Shown one piece after another: positions 1 to 42,964 of a stretch of 48,146 nt of DNA. Every line of letters starts with the position of its first letter. The stretch's first letter is position 1. Origin of the DNA: a virus; the IMG/VR virus record IMGVR_UViG_3300023180_000100, positions 1 through 48,146 of that record; one strand, written 5' to 3'. The notes under the pieces are model-generated. The model was given only the letters and a program-made list of their open reading frames with translations. It did not search any database and had not been told where the DNA came from. Both the position numbers and the translations under genes were made by a program.

Positions 1-870
1 TCCAGGACCCGTATTACCTTTAGAGCCCGTATAACCTCTAGGACCAGTACCGCCACCTGGTCCAGCTGGACCTCCAGGACCTGTATCACCTTTAGAGCCC
101 GTATAACCTCTAGGACCCGCTGGACCTCCAGGACCCGCTGGACCTCCAGGACCCGTATTACCCTGAGAACCTGTATATCCTCTAGGACCTCCAGGACCCG
201 TATTACCTTTAGAGCCCGTATAACCTCTAGGGCCTTGAGGACCAGTACCGCCACCTGGTCCTGTTGCACCTCTAGATCCTGTATAACCTCTAGGGCCTTG
301 AGGACCTCCAGGACCACCAGGACCTTGAATACCTTGAGAACCTGTATATCCTCTAGGACCTTGTGCACCTCCTGGGCCTCCAGCTCCCGTATCACCTTTA
401 GAACCAGTATAACCTCTTACCCCTTGAGATCCAGTATAGCCAGCAAATTGCCCTGCGTCGATCCATGCAGAACCATCCCAAACATATAGATTACCATTAG
501 CTGTAACAATGTAAGCATCACCTGCTGTGTTGCCAGAACTTGGTAGATTACCTGTTGTAGCAACAGACCCTTGAATTGCAATCGATGTACCGTCTGAGCC
601 TCTTGATCCTGTATAACCAATAACACCTTGAGAACCTGTGTAGCCTCTTACACCTTGTATACCTTGAGATCCTGTATATCCCCGAAGACCTTGTATACCT
701 TGAGAACCAGTATAGCCGATAGGTCCCTGAATACCTTGATCGCCCTTAGATCCTGTATAACCAATATCTCCCTGAGATCCAGTATAACCAATAACACCCT
801 GAGACCCAGTATAACCTGTATCACCTAAAGGACCCTGAGGACCCTGAATACCCTGAGATCCTGTATAACC
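1..870 (-). repeat. Collagen-like Gly-x-x coding repeat tract
   Basis: DNA encoding many copies of a 7-residue motif of the form GYTGS(Q/K/R)G, separated by G-P-x-G triplets. At nucleotide level, near-identical 20-40 bp units recur (plus-strand cores such as cctgtataacctctagg). The globular segment at about 420-600 interrupts the tract. Shorter tracts of the same kind occur at about 1240-1400 and 1780-1920. Such tracts are prone to slippage and recombination. Confidence 0.85.
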
Positions 871-2022
871 TTTAGCTCCATTTGTGGTAAACCAAGCAGT
901 TGCAATTACTGCACCCGAACCAGTAGAAGATGTTTCGCATCGTATAGAAATTTCATCATCTGCGTTTATTGATACGTTTAAATTTGATATTCTTACATCA
1001 TTATTACCAAAGCCAACTTGGGCCTGTGCAATAGCAGCACCACCTCTTCTTACAGAAATGTTCATAGGAGTTGTTACAGCATTTTGGGTTGTAACTGTGA
1101 TAGCTTCAAGAACCATATCTTCTGGTATTTTTACACCATAGATATTACCAGTAGCACCGTTACCAAATGAGAATTGATCTCCAGAAGCAGGAGTTGCTGA
1201 CTTTTCACCGACAAGCCCGAATATACCTCCTCCAGAACCACTAATACCTGGCACACCTTGGTTACCTTGTGATCCAGTATATCCAATATCTCCTTTATCA
1301 CCAACTGATCCAGAATAACCTAACGATCCAGAATATCCTCTGAGACCTTGTGAACCTGTAAACCCTTGATCACCTTGTGAGCCCACAAAGCCTGAATTAC
1401 CTCTATGGGTATAAGATAAAATAGTGTCTTCATTTGCTGAGAATACAGCTGTACCTCCAAGGTATGTAACATCAAACAACATTACACTATTAGAGAAAGT
1501 ACTATTTCCAGTAACTCTATAAAGTAAAAAGTCAGATGAGTTAGCATCTGCAGATCTTATCATTAGATAACCACGATCAGTAGTACCCCCATAATCGTCA
1601 AAGGTATTTAAATAGTTAATATTATCATGACCATCTGAACTTGTTCTGTGAATACCAATCTGAGAGGCAGATGTAAGTGTAGCATTGTTCCAACGAATAG
1701 AACCACTAGCGGCTTGGTTAACAGTTGTTGAACTTGGATCAGCTTCGTATTTTAAGCCCTGAGCAGCTGCAGATCCACCATAACCTCTAGAACCTGTAAA
1801 ACCAATAGATCCTGTAAAACCTACCGAACCAACAAATCCTAGGTTACCTTGAGATCCAGTATAACCCGACCCCTTAGATCCCGTAAAACCTTGAGATCCA
1901 GTATAGCCAATAAATGTAGATGCAACCCAAGATGTAGTATCACTATCATAAAAATATGATATGCTATTAGTACTATATGTATCACCATGTGATGGGTTGA
2001 TTGGAAAATTTAACGCTGCCAT
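1..2022 (-). CDS. Collagen-like tail fibre protein (3' end beyond window)
   Basis: The frame is open from an ATG at 2022 to the left edge (674 codons, no stop), so the C-terminus is missing. A GGGAG ribosome site precedes the ATG, which lies just past the upstream gene's stop. The N-terminus ([14 protein letters not shown]) matches the N-terminus of the 323-residue protein at 7624-8595, suggesting a shared attachment module. Short collagen-like Gly-x-x blocks (GYTGSQG, GFTGSQG) follow, then a globular stretch around residues 85-205, more collagen-like repeats, a beta-rich globular domain near residues 260-380, and a long collagen-like tract interrupted once near residues 475-535 by a segment containing VWDGSAW. 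Collagen-like tracts in phages form trimeric fibre shafts. The role as a fibre in host contact is inferred from composition and from position at the end of a fibre operon. Confidence 0.85.
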
Positions 2023-2025
2023 TTA

Positions 2026-5000
2026 TTAACTCCCTGCGGACTTCGCTAAGAACCCTCTTTCGGGGTCGAATTCAACAAACACACCATGTACTTCTTTATC
2101 CCATGTTGCTTCCGAATATCCTGTTACTAAGAATGTAGATCCATTGTTATCTATGCTATATGAGAAATCAGAAGATCCGGATCCTACTTGATATTTAGAC
2201 CAACCATTAAAGTTGCCAGAACCGTCACTATCAAAATCAAAGATACCTAATCCGATATCCTTTAGACCAAAGGTGTTGGCATCATCAGCAAAGGCTCCGG
2301 CGCTATTGCAGACAACTCCGATTCTTCCGTCTGGTAATCTTGAACTTGGCTTACCATTTTGTTCAATTTCTTCTGAGGTTTCTGATCCAGTATTATATCC
2401 TTGACTCCAAGTATCAGTTGCATAGTTAAACGTAATAACCCCAATATCTTCAGAACCAAATGTTGCTGAACCATTTACACTACCAAAAGTTGTATATACA
2501 ATAGCTAGTGTATTCTCTATGGTGTCGTCAATATCATGTACGTTCATTGCTTTATCATTAAACCCTGAACCGTTTACATAATATTCTCCGCTCCATGTAG
2601 TAGGATTGAATATACCTAAGAAAATATCATATCCACCAATAGTTGTGCCTGGCCCCGCGAGATCACCAGTTGATCTACCTACAACTGCAATATTTCCTGC
2701 CTTTGGTGAAATACCGGGTGACACCTGAATATAGAATGGGTGATTATTGCTAGTTGTACTTACACTAAAATTAACTGTATCACCGGTATCCATTGTAATG
2801 GTTGGATTAAGAGCACTGCTATGAGTAGTAGCTCTATCAGTTCCAGAAATTGCCCAATACAACGCTCCTCCGGTAAATGTTGATGTAACATTAAGGTTAT
2901 AGGTTCCTGTGCCACTTGATTGATCAGTAACAGTGATAATACCATTCATATTAGCATGATTGCCACATTGATAGTAATATGTTCCCGCAGTATCGGGAGT
3001 CCAGCTAACAACACCGTTTACAGACCCATTATTTGTAACAGGTGGATCTTCAACTAAGTTTGAAGGAGTAGAACCCCTTAATTCTGTAATTGCATATATT
3101 TCTTCATCGTCCGCAGATCCGTTCTGCCAGAATCGAAATTCCTTTGTTGCGATATTAAATTGACCTAACCAATAATCATAAACACCGGAAAGACCAGTAT
3201 TAGTCTTTGCCATATTACCAGATATTTGGCCGCCTGTATAATAATATTCATTATCAGAAGATTTAATAACATCGTAAGCAAATATATTACCATCGTCCGC
3301 GGTCGCATCTCCAACCGTCGACATCTGGTATATTTCAAAGAGTTCATTTGCAGCGTGGATATTATATCCTTTATTTCTTTCTTCTTGATATCTTGGTGTG
3401 TTTAAAAATTCTTGTAAACCAGACAACTCTACAATGCCAAGAAATCCAGTAAACAAACCATTTGCACCATATGAACCATTATATTCCGTGCTATAATAAG
3501 TTTTATCCAATACACTTGTTGAAATATTGTTTGTATCAATGTTTACAGTAAACATTGTTGGGTCCAATATTTCAGTGGTATTGTTTTGTAAAACTGTATC
3601 ATTTATTGCAGTAATGGGATTAGAATCATAATAATAAGCATTTGAAGTTGAATATGATGTATGATATACACCTGTTCCAAATCCAGTTTTCCATTGTCTA
3701 AACATTACAGCATCTCTGCCATAGGAGTGCGAAGTTGAACTTCCACCAAATACAAAGTTTTTACCGAGACGATCCCAAACCATATCTTTATTAATAAAGT
3801 CCTCGCCCATATGCCCAAGAGTATTTGCAAAATACAATGAGCCATCTGAATCATTTATACCCGCAACAAGTGTATCATTTCTCCAAAGCATACCAAAACT
3901 ATTAGATGCGTCACTATCAAGATTAAGACCAGTGGCTAACATAATAACACGGTTGTTGCCCATATTGTTATTATGATCAGGCTCATTTAAGTACCATTCT
4001 CTTTGATTGGAATCTTCTGATAGAAGAGTATTAATTTCTTCAACATAAGCTTCATTTCTTAAACTTTGATATTGTTTTTCCCATACAATATCCGACACCC
4101 ATCCATTTGCAGAATCTCTTAAATCATATCTACCAGCAATCGCAAAAGATCTGTGGCCATATGAAGTATAGTTTACAGGAGTTTGTGCTGAGTCTGCTAA
4201 TGATATATCTTCTCTTTTACCAGCAACAACAATCCGCCATTGAGCATTATCAGAATCATATCTGGTTAATCTGATATCATTATAACCAGCTTCAATTGAA
4301 CGGATCTGAGCATCTGCAACAGATGTACTTGCCCAAGAATGATGTCTTACATAATCAACTAAAGTACTAGAATTAACATTACCAATACCCCAACTAGGTG
4401 CTCTATAATTACCAGTTTTATCAGATCCTGCAAATAAAAACTCACCTGTATTTGGTCTACCTGGTCTTATTCTATTAATATGAAAATCGGCGTTTGAAAA
4501 CTGCATAAGTTTAGAAGTCGCAATATCGCCATTAGCAGCATTAATAACTGATAAAATACCAGCTCCCCTAGAGGAGTCATCATTAGTTTCATTTGTTAAA
4601 AATGTTACAATGTTATCAATTCCATTATTATTTATTACTGCATGGCTTGTAATTTCACTGTAGTTATTGCTTACTCCAAACCGCTTTGACCAGATTACAT
4701 TATCTGCTGAATCAAGTCTTGCAAGATAACCATTTTTATACAACGTGCCATTCTTTGTCCATCCTGATACAATATAATCTTTATGATTTGCGAGTGGGGT
4801 TACAGTATGTATTTCATCAGAGTCAAACCCCAATGAAAAATATTTTGCACCAGTATAGTTATAATTCTCATCATAAGTAGCCAAAAACGGTGATTTAATT
4901 CTTACATCATTGCCTACAAGTTTAAATCCATTATCATTAGTTTTAAACAAACTTGTAAATGACATATCAGCCGAATCAGCGGTTTCTTTAAGGTTTCTGC

Positions 5001-7248
5001 CCCATCCATGAACCAATTGTGAACCTTTACTAGTCAATTCGCCCTTTGCGTATCCAGATAATATTAAGGAGTTATTTTGCACATCTTCGATAACACCTGT
5101 AATATAATCATCACCTTCAGCTGTGTATGTATAGCTAATTGAGTTGTTTTCGTTATCAATAATAGTTAATAATAGATCACCGCCAAGGCCAGTATTTTGC
5201 ACATTATCTTCAACACGCCCCACTAGACATTTGCGACCATCAGAAAGATAGATACCTTGATAATAATATTCCTCTGCGCCTGTATTAATTTCTTTTTTAT
5301 TAAAGAATATCGGGGAAGCAACATCGTATTGTAGAATAGAAGTGCCTTGTGTAATACCCTCAGGTTCGGAAGTTGTCTTTTTTACAAATTCTGCATTTGA
5401 GTGAGTATATTGAATATGCCCAGATGTATTAGGCCCTTTAGTAATAAAACTTCCTGTAGCTACATCATAATCTAAATGATCATAACCTGCAAACGACCCA
5501 CCAGCAAGATCAAAACTATAAAGACCCTTTCCAGAATATGTACCAGTACCTTGAGTACCACTTAATAGTGTGTAGAACTTAGTGTTGGTAGCATTGTATT
5601 TAAAGCCATGAATTCTTAAATCATTAGCAACAGTATTAGTGACAATTTGTCCTTCATCATATAGTGATCCAGTAGAATCAATCAAAGTTTCGGCGCTGTA
5701 GAGATCGGCACCACCTCTTAAAGATCCAGTACCAGCTACATATAACTTTGTACCAACACTTGTTATTAAGACATCAGGACGTTCCGGTGTACTTCTAAAA
5801 TTCCATGGCATATTGATACGTGTTAAAGTACCAGGTGAAATAGTATTAGCATCCGTTACGCGCCAAATCTGAGTATCATAAGTATCATCTATATCTTCAA
5901 CAATAATAGTACCATACATACCACTATGTACAACACAGACATAATAATATGTACCTGCTGTTTGTGGTGTAAAGGTAATATACTGTGTACCATGCCCTGA
6001 AGCACCCGCAGCCTGACCAGTCGTGTTCGTTTGATTGTTTGTCTTAATATAAAGTGGATGTGTAGATGCATCACCAGAATTTGCAAATGCCCATCTTGCG
6101 GTATCTCCAACTTTTAATCTTACAGTCGGATGGTTAGCCACACCATCAAGTGTACCTGGGGCTTGTCTGTCCGTACCATTTAATTGATAAAGGTTACCAC
6201 CATTTGCAGTAACAACTAGATCGCCAAAGTCAATAACTTCTGCCTTCATAATTGTCGGCCAGTATACATAAGAACCAAATGTATGACCTGCTGATACCCT
6301 CATTGGATATTGACTCATAATACCTTCAGCTTGAGCATTACCACCAGGATATGGCACAAATGTAGGAGTTGCTAGATCAAATGATCCATAATTAACCTGA
6401 GGAGTAAACGAACCTGAAGATGATGTATAGGTTCTTGAATACACATTCCATTCACCATCTGTTGATGAGGAATCCATATAAAAAGCATGGAATCTATTTG
6501 ATGATCCTTTTAAAATACCACCGGCAAGATAGTTAATACCAGCGGTTGATGGCAAAGTAACATCATTGTGTGAGTTATGTGCACCACCTACTGATGGCGT
6601 GTGGATACGTGCAAGTGGAACATTATAAGAAGAACCGCCTGATGTAGCTCGGATAGTAATTAGATAACCATACTGTTTATCAGCAGGTCTAATATATCCA
6701 TCAGCATCCCAAACTAATCTGCCGTCATCAAACTGAGCGTAGTTGGAAGGAAGGTGTTTGTGGTATTGATAAAATTCCCAATCTGCTCCTGCAGATGTAT
6801 GATAAGCCCTATCCCAATAAAAAGCATCATCTTCTAACAAACCACCATTTTGGGTACCATCATCACCCCATGTACCAATATGTCCAAAGAAAAACGCGTC
6901 TTGTTCATTAATATTGGTAATATCATTAACGCCTGTTCCGATATTTTGAATACAGCCTCCATGATATCTTAATGATGATCCATTATGTGTTTCATCAATA
7001 AATGCAATGGTACCATCTAATGCCATTTTTTCAGGTTCACCTGATAGTGCAGAAGCTGTTGCAATATCTAGTGCAGAATCCCATTGGTAGGGTGATATAG
7101 CATTACCTGTAAGTGTAGCATTATTAGTAAGATCAGATGGATGATAGGTATACCAATATCCATCATTAGATATATGATGCATAACTGGTAAACCCAAAAA
7201 ATCTGAGTCTACTAAAGTATAATGCTGTGTTAGATTGGCAATAGTCAT
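2026..7248 (-). CDS. Giant propeller/cupredoxin virion protein (1740 aa)
   Basis: Start ATG at 7248 with an AGGAA ribosome site. The protein is built mostly of repeated beta-units resembling propeller blades; units of the type G-x-DI-x-LGIF followed by GSG-x-x-D and VVG/VTG-x-S are clearest in residues 1380-1740. Two cupredoxin-like modules are embedded. The first (about 341-452) has H397 then C438-x2-H441-x2-M444. The second (about 1397-1517) has C1428-x2-H1431-x2-M1434 placed before H1503, so its halves are in reversed order. No signal peptide or membrane segment is seen. It sits between a small fibre module and the collagen-like fibre. I infer a peripheral tail adhesin or fibre. I do not recognise it as a named family, and enzymatic activity cannot be excluded. 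Confidence 0.8.
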   Translation of the reverse strand: MTIANLTQHYTLVDSDFLGLPVMHHISNDGYWYTYHPSDLTNNATLTGNAISPYQWDSALDIATASALSGEPEKMALDGTIAFIDETHNGSSLRYHGGCIQNIGTGVNDITNINEQDAFFFGHIGTWGDDGTQNGGLLEDDAFYWDRAYHTSAGADWEFYQYHKHLPSNYAQFDDGRLVWDADGYIRPADKQYGYLITIRATSGGSSYNVPLARIHTPSVGGAHNSHNDVTLPSTAGINYLAGGILKGSSNRFHAFYMDSSSTDGEWNVYSRTYTSSSGSFTPQVNYGSFDLATPTFVPYPGGNAQAEGIMSQYPMRVSAGHTFGSYVYWPTIMKAEVIDFGDLVVTANGGNLYQLNGTDRQAPGTLDGVANHPTVRLKVGDTARWAFANSGDASTHPLYIKTNNQTNTTGQAAGASGHGTQYITFTPQTAGTYYYVCVVHSGMYGTIIVEDIDDTYDTQIWRVTDANTISPGTLTRINMPWNFRSTPERPDVLITSVGTKLYVAGTGSLRGGADLYSAETLIDSTGSLYDEGQIVTNTVANDLRIHGFKYNATNTKFYTLLSGTQGTGTYSGKGLYSFDLAGGSFAGYDHLDYDVATGSFITKGPNTSGHIQYTHSNAEFVKKTTSEPEGITQGTSILQYDVASPIFFNKKEINTGAEEYYYQGIYLSDGRKCLVGRVEDNVQNTGLGGDLLLTIIDNENNSISYTYTAEGDDYITGVIEDVQNNSLILSGYAKGELTSKGSQLVHGWGRNLKETADSADMSFTSLFKTNDNGFKLVGNDVRIKSPFLATYDENYNYTGAKYFSLGFDSDEIHTVTPLANHKDYIVSGWTKNGTLYKNGYLARLDSADNVIWSKRFGVSNNYSEITSHAVINNNGIDNIVTFLTNETNDDSSRGAGILSVINAANGDIATSKLMQFSNADFHINRIRPGRPNTGEFLFAGSDKTGNYRAPSWGIGNVNSSTLVDYVRHHSWASTSVADAQIRSIEAGYNDIRLTRYDSDNAQWRIVVAGKREDISLADSAQTPVNYTSYGHRSFAIAGRYDLRDSANGWVSDIVWEKQYQSLRNEAYVEEINTLLSEDSNQREWYLNEPDHNNNMGNNRVIMLATGLNLDSDASNSFGMLWRNDTLVAGINDSDGSLYFANTLGHMGEDFINKDMVWDRLGKNFVFGGSSTSHSYGRDAVMFRQWKTGFGTGVYHTSYSTSNAYYYDSNPITAINDTVLQNNTTEILDPTMFTVNIDTNNISTSVLDKTYYSTEYNGSYGANGLFTGFLGIVELSGLQEFLNTPRYQEERNKGYNIHAANELFEIYQMSTVGDATADDGNIFAYDVIKSSDNEYYYTGGQISGNMAKTNTGLSGVYDYWLGQFNIATKEFRFWQNGSADDEEIYAITELRGSTPSNLVEDPPVTNNGSVNGVVSWTPDTAGTYYYQCGNHANMNGIITVTDQSSGTGTYNLNVTSTFTGGALYWAISGTDRATTHSSALNPTITMDTGDTVNFSVSTTSNNHPFYIQVSPGISPKAGNIAVVGRSTGDLAGPGTTIGGYDIFLGIFNPTTWSGEYYVNGSGFNDKAMNVHDIDDTIENTLAIVYTTFGSVNGSATFGSEDIGVITFNYATDTWSQGYNTGSETSEEIEQNGKPSSRLPDGRIGVVCNSAGAFADDANTFGLKDIGLGIFDFDSDGSGNFNGWSKYQVGSGSSDFSYSIDNNGSTFLVTGYSEATWDKEVHGVFVEFDPERGFLAKSAGS
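2697..3060 (-). other. Circularly permuted cupredoxin-like module inside the 1740-aa protein
   Basis: Encodes residues 1397-1517. The C-terminal half of a cupredoxin (VTNNGSVNG, then GTYYYQCGNHANMNG) comes first. A short TDQSSGTGT linker follows, then the N-terminal half (ISGTDRATTHSSALNP ... NNHPFYIQV). In the 402-residue neighbour the same two halves occur in normal order. The flanks read as one propeller blade once the segment is removed: EEIYAITEL on one side and GNIAVVGRS on the other. Confidence 0.7.
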
Positions 7249-8600: not shown

Positions 8601-9809
8601 TTACCCTGTAAAGTCTATACTTAAATTAAATTCATCTACCGATCCAGTTACACCAGTTATCTCAACCCAGATCCAGCTACCTGCAGGTACTGATGCATTT
8701 GCAATCGTTGGTGTTGATCCTGTGGTAGTGCTTGTTGTAGTTTCTCCACAGATTTGTGTGCCAGTGCCACTGCGACTACTGTTAAAATAAAGATTATAAG
8801 TCACGTTTGTACCATTCACAATAGCGGCTCGTGCGGCTGTTACTGTAATCGCTGTATGAACATACATAAGAGTTCTATTATTATTTGCGGTGGGTGAAGA
8901 AATAGAGATAAATCTTGGTGCTAAAGCACCCTGTGATCCTGTATAACCTCTTGATCCAGAATATCCAGTATCGCCATCGGTTACAGTAGGATCTGCTTGT
9001 AATACCCATTGAGATTGAGAAGTGGCAGGATTTGTGTAATAAATGTATGATTTACCTGTCTGTGAATTGTACCAGATCTGACCGTCTGTTGGATTAGCAG
9101 GAGCTGTTTCCCCTTGAAAAATTGCACCGGCAGAACCTGTATAACCAATGGAACCAGGCGCTGCATCAACCCATTGTGCTCCTGCAGCTTCTGCTGCCAC
9201 GACAGTAATAGTGCCGACCATCATAGGGTGTGATGAACAAATGTAATAAAAAGTACCAACTGTATTAAATTGATGTGAAATTACGACTCCGCCATAAGCA
9301 CCTTGGTTTGTTACACCTGATATATTATACTGGGCATCATAAGAGTCTGTAATACTAAGTTGTGTAACCCAATACATGGGATGCGTGGCACCTGAGTTCT
9401 GGGTGATTTGTAATGTGTCACCCTGAATAAGATATATGTTGGGATCTAAAGCACTACTATGTGTTGTGATTCTATCGGAACCTGATATTTCATAGTCATG
9501 GTTAGTAGAAGCTGTAGAAGTAAGAGATATTGTTTGTGGTGTTGTTTGAGCATCTTCATCAATATAATAAATTTTTAATTTACCATTTGTGGCATCCCAC
9601 CAAAGTGATCCATCTTGTAAAGACTGAGTCGGCGCATCACTATCAGTAATAGCACCACCACCAGAAATACTATTAATTACATTTGCTGAATTTTTATAAT
9701 AGAGAATACCATCACTATAGTTAAGAGCTAGCTCACCATAGTCTAGGTCTCCTGCTTGAGGCTGCTTGCCTACAACAGCCGATCTCTTTAGCTTAATATT
9801 TGCTGCCAT
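8601..9809 (-). CDS. Tail fibre protein with cupredoxin-like domain (402 aa)
   Basis: Starts at ATG 9809 with an AGGA site and is the first gene after a perfect late-promoter box at 9860-9867. The N-terminus (MAANIKLKRSAVVGKQP, then GDLDYGELALNYSDG) is a module often seen at the start of fibre-type proteins of marine T4-like phages. A cupredoxin-like domain spans about residues 102-204, with H143 in ATHPMYW and C191-x2-H194-x2-M197 in YYICSSHPMM, the spacing of an amicyanin-type copper site. A segment with GQIWYNSQTGK, a short collagen-like stretch ([13 protein letters not shown]) and a C-terminal beta domain follow. I infer a modular tail fibre; copper binding is a prediction. Confidence 0.8.
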   Translation of the reverse strand: MAANIKLKRSAVVGKQPQAGDLDYGELALNYSDGILYYKNSANVINSISGGGAITDSDAPTQSLQDGSLWWDATNGKLKIYYIDEDAQTTPQTISLTSTASTNHDYEISGSDRITTHSSALDPNIYLIQGDTLQITQNSGATHPMYWVTQLSITDSYDAQYNISGVTNQGAYGGVVISHQFNTVGTFYYICSSHPMMVGTITVVAAEAAGAQWVDAAPGSIGYTGSAGAIFQGETAPANPTDGQIWYNSQTGKSYIYYTNPATSQSQWVLQADPTVTDGDTGYSGSRGYTGSQGALAPRFISISSPTANNNRTLMYVHTAITVTAARAAIVNGTNVTYNLYFNSSRSGTGTQICGETTTSTTTGSTPTIANASVPAGSWIWVEITGVTGSVDEFNLSIDFTG

Positions 9810-9870: not shown

Positions 9871-12800
9871 TTAATATGTACCACCATCAAGGGTACCGTA
9901 AATAAGTCCCTCTATTTTTACACCATCTGCCGTAGACCAAATTCTACCTCCACCGGTTGTATTTGTATTAGCTGCATTGCCCATATAGGGATGGTTTAAA
10001 CATTGATATGCAATTGTTCTAGGTCCATAATCATGAACTCTGATTTGAGACCAAGTATTGCCAACATTAATATCCCCGGCTGTTCCACTATAGATTACTT
10101 TTGCTGCAGAGTCGGTAATAGAACCATTTCTTTCATTATCAAAATAGAATCTTATGTCATGTGTAGACATTGAAGAATCGTTTTGATGGAATCTATATGT
10201 AGTACCAGGTTGAAGATCTAAATGAGGAGCTTGAATTTCTCTTGCTGTATATAAATCATCTGAATCAAAGGCAATGTAATAACCTTTCGCAGAGCCTGAA
10301 CCATAATAACGATGTGCTGATGTCTTAAAGCCAGATCTTACATAAATGTTAATAATATCATCACCATAGCTATCAACTAGGCCTACTAATGCTGGAATGT
10401 TTGTATTAGCATTATCAGAATCTCTGCCACCATAGGTTCTTAGAATGGTGTTGTTATCAACTATAAATGAACCATTACTATCATCATTTATTGTAACTCT
10501 ACCTGAAGCAGTAATATCCGCAACTGATGGATTTGTATTAAGTGATATTAGACCTGATGCAGAATCATATACAATGTTAGATCCTGCTACCATTACATCT
10601 CTTGCACGTTGTGATGTAAAGTCAGAATCAAGTATGAGTGTTGCAAAACTGCCACCATCGGCTGTATTAATAATAAATTCACCTGTAGCAGAATCGAATG
10701 ATGTGGATGATACTCCTGCAACACTAACTGATCCCGCAGAATCTAATTGACCCTGGGCATTAACCGTAAAGACTGGCACTTGAGATGCAGAACCATATGT
10801 ACCTGCAGTGACTGTGGTATTGGTAATAGAAATATCACCTGATGCTACCGTAATTCCAGTACCACCAACCAATCTTGCGTCAATATCACTATCAACCCTA
10901 GTTGCTGTATAATAAAGATTTAAGGAACCTTCACCTAAACTATCTGTAGTTTGTTGTGATAGGTCGTATTTCAGTTGAGTATTATCAGAATCAACTACTT
11001 GTAGTAAACCATTCGTACTGTGTTTCTTAAGAGTAATTTTTGGGCCAGTACCACCTAGATCAATTTCTAGACCTCTCATAGGCACTCTGTCGAATGCAGG
11101 ATTATGGAATCTTACTCCGCCATCATTTGAGTCAACAGATATAAGAGTGCCACCAAGATTAATTGTGTTTCCAGATAGATATAAATCTTTCCAACGGTAG
11201 TTTGAATCCCCTAGATCGTATGTCTCATTGATTGCAGGAACTAAATGACCATCAATTGTTTGAATGGCTATTCCAAAATCCGAATCAAAATTATCTGCTG
11301 TGTAAACTTGTTCTACGTCAAAACTAAATTCACCGGTTTGATTATTATATGTTAAATCTCCACTGGCAGTAAAGTAACCTCTTATGTCTTGTTTATAGTA
11401 ACTTTCTAGTTCTGCAGAGTCAATTTTTATTTCACCTGCATTATAATTAATACCAGTCCCGCCTGTAAAATGAGCTTGTGTCTCAGCCGCGGAAGGGCCT
11501 GTATATGTAATAATACCAGTTGTAGGAGCATAACTTAAAGATCCATCTCCTCCAGTATCCGTAACAGAAATAGCATGTTTAGCGTCACTGTCTGCTCTTG
11601 TATCAGTATAATAAAGATTTGTTGAACCTTCATTAAGAGCATCAGTAGTATGGTTTTGGAGAGTGGATACCTGACCCGTAACATTACCGGTTAGATTACC
11701 ATAACCCATACTAAATTGAACAGGAGCCAGTGCAAATGTTGGATCGCTTGTGTTAATATTGCCTTCAGGTTCCGGTTGATACCCCGTAAAGAATTTCCAA
11801 CGTTGATCAGATACATCTCTAAACAAACCAGAATGTGCATATGAATCAGCTGGGTTATTATAGTTACCAGCAATACCAATTTGTACGTTAATTGGAGAAG
11901 CTGTACCTTTCCATCTATCACCTTGGGTGTGACCTGTAGACGCACCAAATGTAATTACCTGATTGTCTTGTCCAGCCAGCATAGCAGCTAAACCATCGGT
12001 AGACAAATTCCATTCAGTCAATCCAGTGCCAGCTGAATCAAAATATTCTATAGAACTAAAGTCTGAATCTTTGGCCCACTCAATTACATCTTGAGCACCT
12101 GCAGTTTTAATTCTAACCCAATAAGTAGTAGTTGCTTCACCGGTAAAGTGTCCCGATATTGTCGCATCATCAAGACCCGTACCACCTGAGCCTAAACCCT
12201 GGAAGTTAGTACCAGCTTCGCCAATAGTATCACCACCCCCAAGATAAATGAATGTGTCAGAAACATTTAGTGCTGCTGAAGATGAAGTGGTTTGTGTACC
12301 AAGAACCTGTAGGTTACCCGCAATAGTAACATTACCATCAATACGGGTAGCACCAGTTACACGGAACCTTTCAAAGGTATGATCATACAATGTAACATAT
12401 AAAGAACCACCAGCACCAGCAGAATCTGCAGTTAGACAAGTACCAACATCCATAGGATAATTTGGATATTCAGGAGCAGTTGAAGTAAGAGCACCTGGTG
12501 TATTAAATCCTAAATGTACTCTTTCACCTTCTGTAAGATTAGATGTGTCTATTCCATTAAGCACACCACGAACAACCACATACCCATGTGAGCCATCAGC
12601 AATAGTCTCACCGGCAAGACCTATAACATCTTTTTTATTTACATCAGAAGCATCTGCTAATGCTATGTGAGGATGACGTCCATGTATTGGATGCCCCGGA
12701 ATATGAACTCCGGTAATATAAACAGGCTTACCTTTTTCAATTGTTGTACCAGAATTGTTTCTGGCTCTAATCCATTCTCTTTCACCTAAAAGGATATCTA

Positions 12801-15162
12801 GGCTGTCGCTTGCACCTTGTAGGTAAAGAGTCTTAGCATCTTGATTATACCACAATCTACCTTCTTGATATGATGGTGCTGATAGGTAATCAGTGGGTTC
12901 AAATTCAATAAAACCATTTTCTTTAATTAAGAGATTATCATTAACAATTGCTGAAGTAGATTTAAGATTAGTAATTACACCACTATCAGCATTAAATTGA
13001 GAAATATATGCGGAATCAATTGATACTTGACCAAATGTGGCCGTATCAATATCACCGGTAATAACATTTAAATTTGTTATACGTGCTGAATCAATTAAAG
13101 CATCTACTGCATTAAGATTAGTAATAGTACCTGAATCAATTGTAGCATTAGCAGATGTTAATGCATCTATATCACCAGTTGCTACATTAAGTTGTCCCGC
13201 ATATACTGAATCAAGAATTGCATTGGCAGATGTAAGAGTATCAATATCACCAGTTACAACGTTAAGTTGAATTGCATAAGCCGAGTCTGTAGTAAACTGA
13301 TCAATATCACCAGTTACAACATTTAGTGTTTGAGCTGAAATTGAATCTACTGCTAATTGTTGTATCTCGGCAGTATTGGCTTCCATATTAACAATGTTGA
13401 AGTTATTGATAAATGAAGAGTCAATATGTAATTGAGAAACATTTAGACTATCTACCGTCAATTGTGAAATATAGGCTGAATCAAATCTAGCATGCTTGGC
13501 TACAAGATCTACTGTTTGACCATTGGCATTTTTAACAGCAAGGGCACCATCACTATCTGATAATACAAGTGAGCCGAGATATATTGACTGACCAGAAAGA
13601 TATAGATCTTTCCATCTACGATTAAGTGAACCAAGATCATAAGTTGAATCAAGGTCTGGTAATATATTGCCTAATACATTTACACCACTATCGGTAGTTT
13701 GGAATTTAACCAAATTGTCATAGAATAGTCTTACGCCTTCACCAAGACGTTCGGCATCAAATAAAGTATTACCATCACCGGTCTTAAAGTATTGTTGATC
13801 AGACCATACTTCCACTTTGCCCGATGCATTATTTTTTACAAAGAAATTACTGCCATCATGATAAAGATCAACGTCTATACCATCTGTTGATCCTAAAGTA
13901 ATCTTTACATCATTTTGAAATCTAATGTCTTGGCCGAATGAATCAATTACCTGATCATAAGTTCCACCATCTGCAGTATTAATTCTAAATGTATTTAAAT
14001 TTGATAACCAGCTAGTTGAGTCAACACCAGCAACAGTTGTAGTCGTAATGTCATATAGACGACCATATCTATCAACAGTAAATGTTGGAATCTCGGTTGC
14101 TGAACCAAATGTACCAGAATCAACACCTGTAACGTTTAAATCAAAATAGTTAGAATCAGGATACCAATGTATGTTTACACTATTTTCAATTGCTTGATCT
14201 AGATCTGAGTCAAAGTCTTCACTAGTGTAAACCTGTTGGATGTCAACTGAAATGACTCCAGTATTAGCATCATATTGTAGGTCACCCGAAGTACTAATCA
14301 TACCTCTAATTGTAGATGTAGAGGTTGCGTCTCCTAATGCAGAATCAAATCTTGCTCTTGTATAATAAAGGTTATCACTTTCTTTTAAATCACTTGTAGA
14401 GAACGGACTAAGTGTTACGGCTGTAGTAAATGTTTGACCGTCAGCCGTTGATATGGTAATTTCACCACTATTGTCAGAAGAATCATATTCTAGATTTGTA
14501 ACACCAGCAACAGCAACTGTATTGATGGCGGTCACTTGCCCTTGATCATTTACGGTTAAAACTGGAACTTGTGCTCCTGAACCATATTCTCCAGGAGTTA
14601 CACCAGTTGAATCAACGTCTAATACAAGTCTGTATTCTGATCCAATTTTAGTGGCAGAGGTACTAATAGAATTACCACCAATAATTCTAAATGTCTCTGC
14701 ATCATAAAGAGAAATAGAATCAGTAAAATTATCATCAGTTACAAAGATAGCATGTTTAACTTTATCAACTTCACCATCTACATAGTGTTTTGTGGTAAGG
14801 TCTGAATCATTAAATGCGCCAAGAATGTCTTGTCTGAAAATATTAGCATTGCCTATACCAGTAAGAGTAATATTGCCAGTAACATCAACATTACCTTCAA
14901 TATTAAGATGATCATTAGCAAGAGATATAGTATCACTATCAATAGTAATCTCATCAATTTTTAATACGTTTAACTCTTGTCTATTAATAAAAGTCTGTGT
15001 ATCAGAATCAAATTGTAAAAGATCATTATCTGATAAATTAGTAAGATTAACACCTGTAATATTAAATATGGAAAATGCACCAGACGTTACCCTACGTATA
15101 GGTGTACCTACTATTACTTTTCTTACATAAGTACTTTTAGGCTGAGATGTTTGAATTGGCAT
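9871..15162 (-). CDS. Long tail fibre protein (1763 aa) with pentad repeats and cupredoxin-like end
   Basis: Starts at ATG 15162 with CGGAGA upstream. The N-terminus resembles an attachment region (TSQPKSTYVRKVIVGTP). Beta-rich segments follow, recurring as TPGEYGSGAQVPVLTVN-type units and DLGS-x-x-RRWKDLYLSG units (two copies, the second near residues 1310-1330). Residues about 560-750 are a run of five-residue steps (DSAYI/QLNV/ADI type) suggesting a beta-helix shaft. A central region (about 780-930) contains REWIRARN and GHPIHGRHPHIALADA. The C-terminus (about 1650-1735) has H1668 and C1721-x2-H1724-x2-M1727 in YQCLNHPYM, a divergent cupredoxin-like motif. I infer a major long or proximal tail fibre from size, repeats and position; which T4 fibre it replaces is not clear. 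Confidence 0.8.
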   Translation of the reverse strand: MPIQTSQPKSTYVRKVIVGTPIRRVTSGAFSIFNITGVNLTNLSDNDLLQFDSDTQTFINRQELNVLKIDEITIDSDTISLANDHLNIEGNVDVTGNITLTGIGNANIFRQDILGAFNDSDLTTKHYVDGEVDKVKHAIFVTDDNFTDSISLYDAETFRIIGGNSISTSATKIGSEYRLVLDVDSTGVTPGEYGSGAQVPVLTVNDQGQVTAINTVAVAGVTNLEYDSSDNSGEITISTADGQTFTTAVTLSPFSTSDLKESDNLYYTRARFDSALGDATSTSTIRGMISTSGDLQYDANTGVISVDIQQVYTSEDFDSDLDQAIENSVNIHWYPDSNYFDLNVTGVDSGTFGSATEIPTFTVDRYGRLYDITTTTVAGVDSTSWLSNLNTFRINTADGGTYDQVIDSFGQDIRFQNDVKITLGSTDGIDVDLYHDGSNFFVKNNASGKVEVWSDQQYFKTGDGNTLFDAERLGEGVRLFYDNLVKFQTTDSGVNVLGNILPDLDSTYDLGSLNRRWKDLYLSGQSIYLGSLVLSDSDGALAVKNANGQTVDLVAKHARFDSAYISQLTVDSLNVSQLHIDSSFINNFNIVNMEANTAEIQQLAVDSISAQTLNVVTGDIDQFTTDSAYAIQLNVVTGDIDTLTSANAILDSVYAGQLNVATGDIDALTSANATIDSGTITNLNAVDALIDSARITNLNVITGDIDTATFGQVSIDSAYISQFNADSGVITNLKSTSAIVNDNLLIKENGFIEFEPTDYLSAPSYQEGRLWYNQDAKTLYLQGASDSLDILLGEREWIRARNNSGTTIEKGKPVYITGVHIPGHPIHGRHPHIALADASDVNKKDVIGLAGETIADGSHGYVVVRGVLNGIDTSNLTEGERVHLGFNTPGALTSTAPEYPNYPMDVGTCLTADSAGAGGSLYVTLYDHTFERFRVTGATRIDGNVTIAGNLQVLGTQTTSSSAALNVSDTFIYLGGGDTIGEAGTNFQGLGSGGTGLDDATISGHFTGEATTTYWVRIKTAGAQDVIEWAKDSDFSSIEYFDSAGTGLTEWNLSTDGLAAMLAGQDNQVITFGASTGHTQGDRWKGTASPINVQIGIAGNYNNPADSYAHSGLFRDVSDQRWKFFTGYQPEPEGNINTSDPTFALAPVQFSMGYGNLTGNVTGQVSTLQNHTTDALNEGSTNLYYTDTRADSDAKHAISVTDTGGDGSLSYAPTTGIITYTGPSAAETQAHFTGGTGINYNAGEIKIDSAELESYYKQDIRGYFTASGDLTYNNQTGEFSFDVEQVYTADNFDSDFGIAIQTIDGHLVPAINETYDLGDSNYRWKDLYLSGNTINLGGTLISVDSNDGGVRFHNPAFDRVPMRGLEIDLGGTGPKITLKKHSTNGLLQVVDSDNTQLKYDLSQQTTDSLGEGSLNLYYTATRVDSDIDARLVGGTGITVASGDISITNTTVTAGTYGSASQVPVFTVNAQGQLDSAGSVSVAGVSSTSFDSATGEFIINTADGGSFATLILDSDFTSQRARDVMVAGSNIVYDSASGLISLNTNPSVADITASGRVTINDDSNGSFIVDNNTILRTYGGRDSDNANTNIPALVGLVDSYGDDIINIYVRSGFKTSAHRYYGSGSAKGYYIAFDSDDLYTAREIQAPHLDLQPGTTYRFHQNDSSMSTHDIRFYFDNERNGSITDSAAKVIYSGTAGDINVGNTWSQIRVHDYGPRTIAYQCLNHPYMGNAANTNTTGGGRIWSTADGVKIEGLIYGTLDGGTY

Positions 15163-21398: not shown

Positions 21399-24300
21399 TT
21401 ATTCTCCTAGTTTATGTTTTAACATATCTACTTCAGATTTCAGATCTTTAATAGCCTCTATTAATACACCAACCATCTTTCCATAATCAACCGATTTCAT
21501 ACCCTCTTCGTCTGTCTTGACAACTTCTGGTAGAACTTCTTCTACCTCTTGTGCTACTACACCAACTTTTCTTTCTTCTTCACCAATCTTATTATACCAA
21601 ACACCACGTAGTTGCGATACAAGATCAACGCCGCCGTTTATAGTTTCAATGTTTTCTTTGGTGCGGATGTCTGAGATAGATGTGACGTCACCTTGAACTG
21701 TTAGATCATCACCAGACCATGTTGAGTTAAGAGTACCGCTATATGTGCCTGTATAAAGTTTAATAGTTGATGTAGTAGCAAAATCTAAAAAGCCTTGTTG
21801 GGCAGTTGTCTGGAAATACACTTTACCATTATCTGGTTCAAGCAGCACGGCTTGATTGGCTTGGATGCTGGTATAATTTCCACTGTTTATCGTTAATGTA
21901 TTTGTTGCGTACATAGTTTGTTCAGCAGTGCCTATACTATAAGTAATACCCTGCGTAGTTTGATAGGCAGAACCCCTTGACATAATAATGCTGCCGTTAT
22001 CTGCTTCAAGCCAGACACCATTTTCACCATCAATAATAACATAGCCATCGGTTCCAACCGCCGGATTTGAGCTTTCAGATTCAATAACAATATTACCACC
22101 GTGCCCGCCCGCTTTATCATTAATGGACTGTCCAGTTTTAATTTCTATTTCTTCATTTGCATAAATGTTTAGTCCATCTGTGGCTTGAATTTCTTGAGCA
22201 TTATTAACACCATCAAATCCATAGAATCTCAAATACTGAAGATCAGAATCACCAGTAATAACAAATGAGTTGCCATCTGCATATATGGATGCATATGAAG
22301 TTAATTTTAAATTATTATCACCACCAAAGAGATAACTAGATTTAAGTTCAAGTCCACCAACGCCTTCTAATGTAAAATAATCAGGAGAAACAAAAGAACC
22401 AGTAGCATCATTATTTAATGTCCAGATCCAAGTATCAGCGCCACTACCATTTGTAAAGTTAATGTTATTACCATCTGCATCTAGTGTAATATCCCCTGCA
22501 GCGTCAAGGACAACATTATTATCTGCACTTAGTGTTGCGTCATTATAAGTAGCACCACTTCCAAGAACTAGTTTAGCAGTTTCGTTTGTAGCACCATTTG
22601 TTGATGTTGTTGTATACGCCGCAAGGTTCAATGCACCACGTTGTACTTTACTACTTGATGTATGTTCAATATCGGTTGTGATATCAGCCATTACAACATC
22701 AACTGCAGTATCATCACCACCACTAGCAGTATTTTGTTGCTTATATGTAAAGTTAACCTTATGCATACCAAGTAATTCAGCAGTTAAGCCACCGCCACCA
22801 ACGCTTGAACTATAACCATATTGTCTTAATTCTAGTGTTGGAGATCCATTATCATTCCAGTCATAAGAACTGTTACCGATAATCATCTTTGAAACACCGG
22901 AAGAGTTGTTTACCGAGTTTAGACCATCATACCAGAAAGTACCAGTTGATGGATCACTGTTAAGAAGTGGTATTCTATATCTACCCTCAAGGTCACTTGA
23001 GTCAATATCAATGGATATGGTTTCATTAAATGACTGGTCTAATGTAAAATTACCACCGGTTTTTAAACCATGTCTTGCTGAAATAGTAATAGTAGAGTTG
23101 TTTGGGGTAACTGCGGCTGGCCACGTAATTGTTTTTGTATTGACGGCAGTAACATGGCCCGTTGCATTAGTAGTAATGCTGTCAATAACCTCCTGTTCGC
23201 CCGAGTATGATGCGGTGGCCTCAGAGGTTGTATCGGTTCTAGTGGCATTATCGTGTGTAATAGAACCAAAGGTTGAATTAAATGAAATGGGGGCGGTTGC
23301 ATCTAACCAACTAGAAGTAGCAATTCTTGAAAGAGTATCTGTTTTTGTGGCTGCAGAGTCATCATGTACAGCCCAGTAATTTTCACTTTCATCCCACACC
23401 AGCTTTGCATTATTTCGATTGCCACGCTCAATTTCTATACCGCCGTCTTGTGTTGGAGCAATACTACTTCCCAAATTACTGTTGAGAACTATAATGTTGT
23501 CAGCAAGGTTAATTGTCTCTGTATTGACGGTAGTAGTTGTACCTGATACTGTTAAATTACCTTTTAGTATAGTATTTCCACCAACCCATAGGTTACCAGA
23601 TATATTTGCAGAGTCTGCGGCAAATTGACTGATATCAGCTGAGTCTGCTGTAATACCTTTTGATACAGCAATTCTATTTACACTCAATTGATCTGTAATA
23701 GTAACATCATCTGGCAAACCAATTGTTGCAGATGAACCTTCACCTGGTGTATGAGATACTGTAATCTCATTGGTAGTTCCAGAAATACCAGACATGTAGT
23801 TGCCGGTAGTCTCTGTACCTAGAGTAATACCATTATTTTTAACAGATACTGCACCATTACTTACACTAAAGTTATCAGAACTAAATGAGGCCACACCCTT
23901 AACCGAGGTTGTGGCATTTACGCCAGCAATTGTTACGGTAGCCCCCTCACCTGTACCAGATGCACTAATACCAGTTGAGGCAGTTACTCCAACTGACTGT
24001 ACATAGTTACCAGTAGTTTTAGTACCTAGGGCAATACCATTATCCTTAACATTTACTGTACCAGATGAAAATTCTAGTGTAGAACCGTCAATGTTACTTG
24101 CTGTAAGAATTTGAGAAGTATTAGATGAGTCATAATTAGCAACCCAATAGTTGCCATTTTCATTCCATTCAATTACCGCAGAATCGTAGGACCGTCTGCG
24201 AACTGCTATACCTGCATTTTGAGTAGGTTGACCCTGATCTGGTGTATTTTCAGAAAGTAGAACTACATATGCATCACTAGTTCTAACATTACCTTCTACA

Positions 24301-25640
24301 ACTTGGGTTGCTGCAACAAGACTATTAACTGAAAGTGTATTAACATGCAAGTTGCTTGCAGCAGCAGAATCAATAATACCTATAAACCCACTGGTGCTTA
24401 GAGTTCCAAAGTCTGCAGAATCAACATGTAATTGACTAATATGAGCTGAGTCAATATCAGCATTAGCGGAATTAAGTTGACCAATATAAGCAGAATCAAG
24501 TGTAGCATTATCGACATCCATTGTTGCTACATTAAGCTGTGTAACATAAGCGGAATCTATAATACCATCACGTAGACGTAGCTGTCTTATGTCAGCTGAA
24601 TCTACATCCAATTGACTAATATGAGCCGAATCTATATCCGCTTGAAGAACATTAAGTTGATGCATAAATGCAGAATCAACATCTACATCTTTAAAATTTA
24701 ATTGTGAGAAGTACGCAGAATCACCAGCAATTTGACTTACATTTATTTGACTAAAATAAGCTGAGTCAACATTTACTTGAGATGCGCTTAACTGTACTAC
24801 ATACGCTGAATCAACATCTAGTTTATTTACATTAATCTGATCAGCATATGCTGAATCAATGTCAGCCTGAGAAACATTAAGTTGACCGATATAGGCAGAA
24901 TCCAATACAACATTATCGGCATCCATTGTTGCTACATTAAGTTGTGTAACATAGGCCGAATCAATAATACCATCACGTAGACGCAATTGTCTTATGTCTG
25001 CGGAATCTACATCTAATTGATTTATAGCCGCGGAATCAATAGATGCATTTTCTACCCAAAGAGTTCCCCATTTATCTGTTTGACCACCCAGATCATGTTT
25101 ATTATTGGGAATAATTGCTGAACCTACTTGTGCTTGAAAAACAACAGCATCAGTATTAGTATCACCAATTGTAACAAGGCTTGCATTACCAGCCTTTAGA
25201 GAAGAAACACCATCTACTATAAGATTGCCTTTTACTGATAGATCTCCGTCGATATACGCGCTGTCTGCGTGCAGGAAATGAACATCTAGTACATCTACAT
25301 AGGCGGAATCTATATCAACTTGAGAAGCATTTAATTGGCCTACATAGGCAGAATCTGCTTCGAGATTTGATGTCCAAATCCGAGTATCAACATTAAGTTG
25401 ACCATCAAAATGACTTACAAAATTACTATCAGAAAAATGTGCACCCGGAGTCCACAAACCGGTGTTTTGTATAGAATCAAGTTTTGCGTCTAGTTCATTA
25501 ATTGATTGTACAACGTCAACTGCATCGGTAGTCAAAGAGGTGATATCACCAACTGAATCAACTAATTGATTAAATCTTTTTCTGTGCGTATTAATTGTAT
25601 CACTTAATTGCACGAAAGGTATTTTTGTATTATTAGCCAT
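21399..25640 (-). CDS. Long tail fibre with C-terminal S74 intramolecular chaperone (1413 aa)
   Basis: ATG at 25640, overlapping the end of the preceding 72-codon gene by eight bases. Residues about 90-430 are a long run of 15-residue units (DSAYIGQLNVSQADI type) made of five-residue steps with A/L and I/V at fixed places, suggesting a beta-helical shaft. Beta-rich segments follow, with KNNGITLGTETTGNY-type repeats. The C-terminus (about 1315-1413) is a clear Peptidase_S74 intramolecular chaperone: SDIRTKENIE, then GVVAQEVEEVLPEVV, then a coiled-coil end. In this family the chaperone trimerises the fibre and cuts itself off before the Ser of a Ser-Lys pair, here S1323 and K1328, which would release about 91 residues. 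I infer a trimeric host-contact fibre. Confidence 0.88.
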   Translation of the reverse strand: MANNTKIPFVQLSDTINTHRKRFNQLVDSVGDITSLTTDAVDVVQSINELDAKLDSIQNTGLWTPGAHFSDSNFVSHFDGQLNVDTRIWTSNLEADSAYVGQLNASQVDIDSAYVDVLDVHFLHADSAYIDGDLSVKGNLIVDGVSSLKAGNASLVTIGDTNTDAVVFQAQVGSAIIPNNKHDLGGQTDKWGTLWVENASIDSAAINQLDVDSADIRQLRLRDGIIDSAYVTQLNVATMDADNVVLDSAYIGQLNVSQADIDSAYADQINVNKLDVDSAYVVQLSASQVNVDSAYFSQINVSQIAGDSAYFSQLNFKDVDVDSAFMHQLNVLQADIDSAHISQLDVDSADIRQLRLRDGIIDSAYVTQLNVATMDVDNATLDSAYIGQLNSANADIDSAHISQLHVDSADFGTLSTSGFIGIIDSAAASNLHVNTLSVNSLVAATQVVEGNVRTSDAYVVLLSENTPDQGQPTQNAGIAVRRRSYDSAVIEWNENGNYWVANYDSSNTSQILTASNIDGSTLEFSSGTVNVKDNGIALGTKTTGNYVQSVGVTASTGISASGTGEGATVTIAGVNATTSVKGVASFSSDNFSVSNGAVSVKNNGITLGTETTGNYMSGISGTTNEITVSHTPGEGSSATIGLPDDVTITDQLSVNRIAVSKGITADSADISQFAADSANISGNLWVGGNTILKGNLTVSGTTTTVNTETINLADNIIVLNSNLGSSIAPTQDGGIEIERGNRNNAKLVWDESENYWAVHDDSAATKTDTLSRIATSSWLDATAPISFNSTFGSITHDNATRTDTTSEATASYSGEQEVIDSITTNATGHVTAVNTKTITWPAAVTPNNSTITISARHGLKTGGNFTLDQSFNETISIDIDSSDLEGRYRIPLLNSDPSTGTFWYDGLNSVNNSSGVSKMIIGNSSYDWNDNGSPTLELRQYGYSSSVGGGGLTAELLGMHKVNFTYKQQNTASGGDDTAVDVVMADITTDIEHTSSSKVQRGALNLAAYTTTSTNGATNETAKLVLGSGATYNDATLSADNNVVLDAAGDITLDADGNNINFTNGSGADTWIWTLNNDATGSFVSPDYFTLEGVGGLELKSSYLFGGDNNLKLTSYASIYADGNSFVITGDSDLQYLRFYGFDGVNNAQEIQATDGLNIYANEEIEIKTGQSINDKAGGHGGNIVIESESSNPAVGTDGYVIIDGENGVWLEADNGSIIMSRGSAYQTTQGITYSIGTAEQTMYATNTLTINSGNYTSIQANQAVLLEPDNGKVYFQTTAQQGFLDFATTSTIKLYTGTYSGTLNSTWSGDDLTVQGDVTSISDIRTKENIETINGGVDLVSQLRGVWYNKIGEEERKVGVVAQEVEEVLPEVVKTDEEGMKSVDYGKMVGVLIEAIKDLKSEVDMLKHKLGE
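24472..24615 (-). repeat. 144-bp direct repeat, copy 2 in coding order
   Basis: Near-identical to 24877-25020 in the same orientation and frame. Encodes QLN, a variable spacer, then VDSADIRQLRLRDGII and DSAYVTQLNVATMD-type units of the fibre shaft. The copies differ by scattered, mostly synonymous substitutions, so this is an older duplication within the repeat domain. Confidence 0.8.
24877..25020 (-). repeat. 144-bp direct repeat, copy 1 in coding order
   Basis: Partner of 24472-24615, with start points 405 bp apart. Both copies begin with plus-strand ttaagttgacc and end with ctacatc(c/t)aattga. The equal length and preserved frame indicate a segmental duplication in the shaft of the S74 fibre, which would lengthen or shorten the fibre if the copies recombined. 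Confidence 0.8.
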
Positions 25641-37797: not shown

Positions 37798-37805
37798 TAT
37801 TTATA
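37798..37805 (-). promoter_or_regulatory. T4-type late promoter box
   Basis: Perfect TATAAATA on the minus strand, overlapping the stop codon of the spike gene and 18 bp upstream of the gp25 ATG. The predicted leader is about 11 bases and still holds the AGGTTGAG site. It would drive gp25, gp6, the gpI-like protein and the 191-residue protein. Confidence 0.65.
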
Positions 37806-41990: not shown

Positions 41991-41992
41991 AA

Positions 41993-42964
41993 TTATACTC
42001 CATTAATAGATGCTTCATACCAAGATAGGGCATCTGTTGCATATTTAGACCGTGTAATATACTCACTATCCTTATTAGCAGGGTTTTCATATCTATCAAG
42101 AAAAACCCACGTTGCGTTATTATCACCTTTAGGACCGTTTATTCTATTACTGTTTATGAGCCTACGATGCACATAAGAATATTCTGACGCATCAGTATCT
42201 TTACCACCTAATGAACCGTTTAAAGTATTAACCAAATAACCCAACTGCCCAAAGAAATCACTTTCGGGTAAATTTCTAAGGTTGGCATAATTTTTTAATT
42301 TATTCCATCTAAATCCTGCATTAGCACTATTATTCCATTGTGCCAAGCCATAAGAATTACCGTTGTCACCCAAAGCAGTAGGATCAAAATACACATTGTC
42401 CTTTGCATTAAAACTTTCTTTTGTGAGGTTGCCTACTATACCGGCAGCTTGTAATGGTGTATATCCATTTTGGGTAAGATAACTCATAATAATTACAGAT
42501 TTTTTTACCATGGCTGATGAACCGTAACCACCAGCAGCCCTTTCAACTGTATTGTAATTCTTTATAAGATTATTGGGTTGTATAAACCCATCATGCTTAA
42601 TAGTACTACTTGCGTCTACACTGCTGCTTGTGGAACCTCTATTGACAGTGGTTCTCAATCTTTGTTGGGTTGCTGATTCTCTTTCTGTGGTAAACATTGA
42701 TCCTAATACAATAGGAGACTGTGAATTTTCACCATCTAAGAAAAACCCATAAACCCTAGCCGGTGGATGTATCTGAGGTATTTTACCAATACCTGATGTC
42801 CCGGCTTCTGTGGTGGGTATTAAAATGTCTGCCCAAGGTAAATTGGCATTATCAATATCGGGTCCATGAATACCAAATATTCTTACCTTAATCTTCCCAG
42901 GAAAATCTTTATTGATTTCAATTGCGGTACCTATAAACCAACGGGTCTTATCTCCATAATACAT
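41993..42964 (-). CDS. gp5: Baseplate hub protein gp5: OB-fold plus lysozyme
   Basis: ATG at 42964 in a TAATG overlap with the hub gene. Residues about 1-95 are the gp5/VgrG-type OB-fold (WFIGTAIEINKDFPGKIKVRIFGIHG, then LPWADILIP). A Ser/Thr-rich linker spans about 96-148. Residues about 150-323 are a phage tail lysozyme domain of the Phage_lysozyme2 type (GYTPLQAAGIVGNLTKESFN with a likely catalytic Glu near 183, then SYGLAQWN). T4 gp5 instead has a T4-lysozyme-type domain and its needle in one chain. Here the needle is in the separate gene at 37801-40344. The protein should sit under the gp27-like hub and cut glycan strands during entry. Confidence 0.9.
   Translation of the reverse strand: MYYGDKTRWFIGTAIEINKDFPGKIKVRIFGIHGPDIDNANLPWADILIPTTEAGTSGIGKIPQIHPPARVYGFFLDGENSQSPIVLGSMFTTERESATQQRLRTTVNRGSTSSSVDASSTIKHDGFIQPNNLIKNYNTVERAAGGYGSSAMVKKSVIIMSYLTQNGYTPLQAAGIVGNLTKESFNAKDNVYFDPTALGDNGNSYGLAQWNNSANAGFRWNKLKNYANLRNLPESDFFGQLGYLVNTLNGSLGGKDTDASEYSYVHRRLINSNRINGPKGDNNATWVFLDRYENPANKDSEYITRSKYATDALSWYEASINGV

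Follow-up and report, generated by a model that had tools for sequence, protein, structure and literature searches.

The window analysed here, a stretch of 48,146 bases from a virus record with T4-like phage tail genes, encodes on its minus strand a 1740-residue tail-module protein (2026..7248, a single open reading frame) in which, with a probability that we put at roughly 0.86, a complete cupredoxin-type domain has been circularly permuted and spliced into the turn of a propeller blade, as a loop-inserted module of the tail. In the arrangement we propose, the strands carrying Cys, His and Met, which we take to be strands 6-7-8 in plastocyanin numbering, would come first, a short linker would join the old ends, and strands 1-4 with the first His would follow. 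The new ends would lie together in the loop past the first-His strand and would enter one propeller blade at its tight c-d turn. Because the new ends would thus sit side by side in that turn, the blade and the cupredoxin could each fold as a unit.

The permuted domain comprises residues 1391-1515 (2704..3078, minus strand), as delimited by alignments, orthologues, AlphaFold2 and a profile; the original prediction had placed it at 2697-3060, correctly as to its presence and less so as to its limits. Its C-terminal-type half is in first place (residues 1391-1443, GVVSWTP...GTYYYQCGNHANMNGIITV; 2920..3078), followed by an SSGTGT linker between the old ends (residues 1444-1449; 2902..2919) and by the N-terminal-type half (residues 1450-1515, GTDR...HPFYIQ; 2704..2901), all three on the minus strand and set by alignment. 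Two normal-order cupredoxins in the window served as references: residues 341-457 of the same protein (5878..6228, minus strand; alignment, and Pfam Copper-bind at 414-451 with E 1.4e-4), a copy absent from the original prediction, and residues 95-212 of a 402-residue protein (domain at 9174..9527 in a gene at 8601-9809, minus strand; alignment, and Pfam Copper-bind at 127-203 with E 9.7e-4, slightly short of the curated cut-off). The halves of the permuted domain were reordered by script and aligned to both copies, with 1000 shuffles for comparison. With native order restored, a single alignment spans them end to end, both with the copy in the 402-residue protein (score 166, versus 98 as written) and with the 341-457 copy (148 versus 88), the reordered scores of 148 and 166 lying 17.9 and 22.0 standard deviations over the shuffles; as written, just one half aligns at any time with the normal copies. 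None of the 1000 shuffles reached any of these four scores, and either half on its own beats all 1000 against both normal copies, so that chance resemblance of the halves to cupredoxins is ruled out. Both segments are homologous to a normal relative, stand in swapped order and jointly cover that relative, and joining the old ends restores a full-length domain in the alignment of residues 1391-1515. Since the native half order is absent, with the C-terminal half ahead of the N-terminal half, we class the domain as a permuted variant and not as an ordinary cupredoxin. Three earlier claims are borne out here: that the CxxHxxM half precedes the HPFYIQ half in the 1740-residue protein, now backed by alignments and shuffles, that the 402-residue protein has the normal half order, and that the new ends fall in the loop following the first-His strand.

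The swapped order is also kept among orthologues. A search with the C-terminal region returned 21 loci. Four match the window exactly in that region; the proteins of the remaining 17 are 52-74% identical to that of the window over their whole length and 41-75% identical in the domain, and all 17 (10 distinct domain sequences) keep the halves swapped. In the domain alignment, which has 18 rows including the window and 11 distinct domain sequences, the ligand positions Cys1428 (2965..2967), His1431 (2956..2958), Met1434 (2947..2949) and His1503 (2740..2742), all on the minus strand, carry the same letter in 18 of 18 rows; the full ligand set is kept, as had been expected. These four are among 24 invariant positions out of 125 and, given that proportion, a blind draw would find all of them invariant with a chance of about 0.001, a figure that ignores how frequently Cys and His are conserved. 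The SSGTGT stretch had rightly been placed between the old ends; it is not conserved, and orthologues differ there. As far as sequence comparison reaches, the swapped order, the completeness and the conservation of residues 1391-1515 are thereby established. In a domain tree the window's family of permuted copies (11 distinct sequences) clusters together (support 0.80), and the next nodes, at 0.45 and 0.41, do not resolve the donor. A search of cellular genomes gave two loci, both with normal order.

Homology at the sequence level is strong to normal-order phage copies, one of which (341-457) passes Pfam Copper-bind, and the positions of the four type 1 copper ligands (His, Cys, His, Met) fall in the correct sequence blocks; the permuted domain probably binds copper. 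With a profile of the domain as query, chains of amicyanin, auracyanin, rusticyanin and plastocyanin come up, with E from 0.0054 upward. The amicyanin match at E 0.0054, a sequence match, comes in swapped order, with profile 87-118 on chain 31-61 and profile 23-49 on chain 79-105, and both amicyanin rows shown have their pieces swapped in this way. In the best amicyanin row the Cys-His-Met piece contributes 14.5 bits and the first-His piece 3.9 bits, the latter not significant alone, and we regard the apparent homology to a solved amicyanin as weak. Pfam gave nothing at the permuted copy at E <= 1. Foldseek, run with the domain model against solved structures, gave no matches at E <= 0.001, and VIA placed 3 of 393 chains at Z >= 2, the best of them (2.5) an aspartic peptidase and none a cupredoxin. 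Foldseek follows chain order and VIA re-aligns Foldseek's list only; because both depend on chain order in this way, a permuted fold would be expected to escape them, and their null result speaks neither for nor against a cupredoxin fold.

AlphaFold2 predicts the 125-residue domain alone as one confident domain with 9 strands (pLDDT 89.4, pTM 0.84); the original prediction had named as its refutation two half-domains that do not pack together, and the model gives a single domain. For residues 1250-1740 the mean pLDDT is 72.7 (five models at 72.7, 71.5, 71.3, 59.9 and 51.7), and within this model, whose propeller we consider to be of moderate quality, 10-residue blocks of the permuted domain lie at pLDDT 73-93. 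The C-terminal beta-propeller covers, as far as modelled, residues 1268-1740 (2029..3447, minus strand; AlphaFold2 and a match to CylK), and sets of four strands recur in it, the strands being taken from AlphaFold2/DSSP and the blades assigned by hand. By the same assignment, strands a, b and c of the interrupted blade precede the insert (residues 1357-1389; 3082..3180, minus strand) and strand d follows it (residues 1520-1526; 2671..2691, minus strand), and the c-d turn of this blade is 130 residues long, compared with 5, 7, 5 and 4 residues in the four remaining complete blades. The propeller model matches the CylK propeller 7fh7 with Z 25.1 at 3.0 Å over 297 residues, and further propeller entries match it at Z 17-19.5. 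CylK (PDB 7fh6, 7fh7) has the same propeller fold as the C-terminal region of the window protein at 17% identity over the aligned part; it is an alkylating enzyme, and the likeness here is of fold alone. Predicted strand register and CylK match together bear out, at the level of a model, the earlier view that the flanks of the insert are one continuous blade. The models thus support a compact fold for the permuted domain and its seat in the c-d turn of one propeller blade. A different use of the two halves would be a domain swap, in which they complete each other between the chains of a homo-oligomeric fibre, and tail fibre proteins are indeed often trimers. We consider this improbable: the 125 residues are predicted, as a single chain, to form one high-confidence domain, and in every aligned orthologue (11 distinct sequences) a short linker separates the two neighbouring halves.

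Among the BFVD viral models the domain model has a sole match at E <= 0.001, the "putative proximal tail fiber" of Synechococcus phage S-CAM1 (E 4.4e-5, TMq 0.61). This protein, of the S8 type, likewise hosts an inserted permuted cupredoxin, which runs in the order Cys-His-Met strands, linker, first-His half and strand 6 and scores 247 reordered versus 215 as written. The S-CAM1 copy differs from that of the window in being cut at the strand 6-7 turn and in its host protein, which has a Pfam S8 match at 467-650, past the insert. The S-CAM1 region, used as query, retrieved 58 loci, and the S-CAM1-type family (L162, which is S-CAM1, and L173-L230) has two insertion sites. Site 1 is filled in 24, empty in 11 and truncated or broken in 3 of 38 distinct ORF rows, S-CAM1 included, and site 2 is filled in 10 and empty in 26 of 36 distinct ORF rows. 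Five empty/filled pairs at site 2 differ in length by 113-118 amino acids, and their 300-base flanks are 87-97% identical in four of the five pairs and 80 and 73% identical in the fifth; this comparison does not tell gain from loss. Ten proteins carry two copies; for six of these, copies 1 and 2 were compared and share 58-70% identity in one and the same permuted frame. This suggests that the cupredoxin was transferred as an already permuted unit. Empty as opposed to filled sites suggest, moreover, that the module can spread once permuted. In another S8-type protein, from Marine virus AG-345-F15 (L169), a normal-order cupredoxin is seen by eye to be inserted, so that insertion does not require permutation.

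The S-CAM1-type family also bears on which domain is the guest. The inverse reading, that the propeller is inserted in a cupredoxin loop and that the protein as a whole was then permuted, yields the same chain topology. It would also sit well with the fact that no orthologue of the 1740-residue protein without the insert was found among 23 loci retrieved with the post-insert propeller as query, two of which (L131 and L132) start past the insertion site; a homologue of this kind had been named as a check in the original prediction. Only the S-CAM1-type family yielded empty sites, and there the cupredoxin-free relatives make the cupredoxin the extra part. With the remaining propeller blades of the window protein looking regular as well, we give the inverse reading little credence and retain the cupredoxin as guest. 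A domain placed in a tight turn needs close ends, and both cut points, that of the window and that of S-CAM1, supply them; the native ends of cupredoxins are also close together. On the plastocyanin topology, the copper site presumably occupies the pole opposite to the native ends and both cut points, so it should face outward, away from the host domain.

Nested cupredoxins occur in a third family of eight distinct ORFs (L047, L048, L049, L056, L057, L151, L294 and L309, of which L294 only was scored), in which a Cys-type half is followed by a whole normal cupredoxin and then by a first-His half. The outer domain of L294 runs through strands 6-7-8, a linker, strands 1-2, the inner cupredoxin and strands 3-4. 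Putting these pieces in native order raises its score from 126 to 229 in alignment with the inner copy and from 95 to 153 with a further normal copy, that of L064; to L064 the strand 1-2 piece by itself is weakly similar, 21 of 1000 shuffles scoring as high. The cut of the third family is in the loop following the first-His strand, the same as in the window. For L047 and L151 we set aside a reading as trimmed tandem arrays, a permuted outer domain whose strand 2-3 loop houses a normal one giving the better fit; phage records contain nothing close to one stretch of L151. By eye, L281 likewise has a cupredoxin inside another at residues about 950-1185, directly ahead of the outer first His and flanked by GGGGGS linkers, and the linker spacing in L283, L291, L292 and L300 resembles that of L281, as judged by linker positions.

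Permutations commonly arise by duplication and later trimming, and some relatives have two cupredoxins per chain (L045), so that the window's domain might be imagined as a decaying remnant of a tandem array, trimmed at both ends and devoid of an intact fold. We think this very unlikely, given ligands that are invariant at 41-75% domain identity, a confident predicted fold, and old ends that, when joined, give a full-length domain; a tandem array is possible as the origin of the permuted domain, rather than as its present state. An assembly chimera, which one might suspect in a metagenomic virus record, is refuted by the same gene in four other assemblies (L001-L004, 0-1 amino acid differences) and by the 17 further orthologous loci.

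Across 310 loci and the window, two profiles detected a cupredoxin half in at least 177 of 1083 distinct ORFs of at least 120 amino acids; the loci stem from directed searches and form no census, and many of the ORFs are closely related. Normal copies number at least 152 in at least 143 ORFs, and adjacent permuted copies at least 52 in at least 42 ORFs, these 42 being split into at least 17 of the window's family and at least 25 of the S-CAM1 type, with the eight ORFs of the third family counted outside them. All 52 adjacent permuted copies found have the C-x2-H-x2-M and first-His motifs. Isolate proteins read apart from that of S-CAM1 show the normal order throughout. The window's domain would belong to a larger set of cupredoxin modules inserted in loops of tail or adsorption proteins of marine T4-like phages, and it probably serves the virion surface or host contact, as a decorating or adhesive tail module. 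A bolder reading draws on the two cut points, the three host protein families, a site that is filled or empty among close relatives, and nesting: cupredoxins, some of them already permuted, would be plug-in modules that move between tail-protein loops and may present copper sites outward. We advance it tentatively, as an idea with somewhat more against it than for it; if true, copper may be part of phage adsorption or of virion stability.

Cupredoxins of the plastocyanin/amicyanin type (Pfam PF00127, Copper-bind) have the same four ligand positions, His and Cys-x2-His-x2-Met; the window domain differs from them in that its halves are permuted, that Pfam misses it and that it sits inside another phage domain. 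The closest sequence relatives found are the normal-order phage cupredoxins of P-HM1, P-SSM2, S-H9-1, ACG-2014e, ACG-2014h and S-CAM4, in which the copies read have the first-His half ahead of the Cys half; in the alignment, reordering brings permuted copies of the window's family to as much as 56% identity with normal phage copies. A circularly permuted azurin, man-made, has reportedly been engineered, and would show that the type 1 copper fold tolerates permutation. Natural circular permutation has been described for imelysin-like proteins from swapped BLAST segments and crystal structures (PMC3143127), in an all-helical fold and, in the accessible part of that article, with no insertion in another domain described. 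Phage-borne plastocyanin genes, as discussed in the accessible part of PMC2984593, are a separate matter from tail cupredoxins. We found no report of a natural permuted cupredoxin or of a phage-tail cupredoxin in the accessible parts of the open-licence literature, a body of work with few subscription papers and no bioRxiv preprints in it. Hoc and similar phage surface proteins carry Ig-like domains (PMC10385173, whose accessible text leaves cupredoxins unmentioned). By analogy, we propose that the role of the permuted cupredoxin may be similar in kind to that of such surface Ig-like domains. To our knowledge, Ig-like domains of the Hoc type have no metal ligand set. Conserved natural permutants, together with empty sites among near relatives in one family, make the origin and spread of permuted domains testable. 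They do the same for the formation of a type 1 copper site on a rewired chain, and they raise the question why copper-type domains are found on marine phage tails.

Judging from its neighbouring genes, the 1740-residue protein would belong to the tail. The window encodes a homologue of the baseplate wedge protein gp6, for which the best among the matches listed (2356 records) is Phage C48C1, with 37% identity over 98%, and among those listed next are phages of Prochlorococcus, Pelagibacter, Methylophilales, Sinorhizobium and others; also among its products are a fibre protein with an S74 chaperone and a tail-lysozyme protein whose OB domain is of the Gp5 type. One of the PHROG matches of the 1740-residue protein is a tail family, and the best stretch of these matches falls in the normal-order cupredoxin. 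Two genes on the same strand, for 122 and 323 amino acids, lie between the 1740-residue gene and that of the 402-residue protein. Farther along, a 1763-residue protein (9871-15162, minus strand) ends in a divergent cupredoxin-like stretch, STHDIRF ... YQCLNHPYMG, recognised by eye only, and Pfam gave no match there at E <= 0.01. The fibre protein with the S74 chaperone domain at its end is encoded at 21399-25640 (minus strand). Three consecutive genes at 37801-42964 (minus strand) carry different types of peptidoglycan-cleaving domain, a tail lysozyme, an amidase-like domain that is under Pfam's cut-off and an M15 peptidase. At 1-2022 (minus strand) there is a collagen-like GYTGSQG repeat protein, and the plus-strand frames open opposite this repeat gene look like antisense artefacts.
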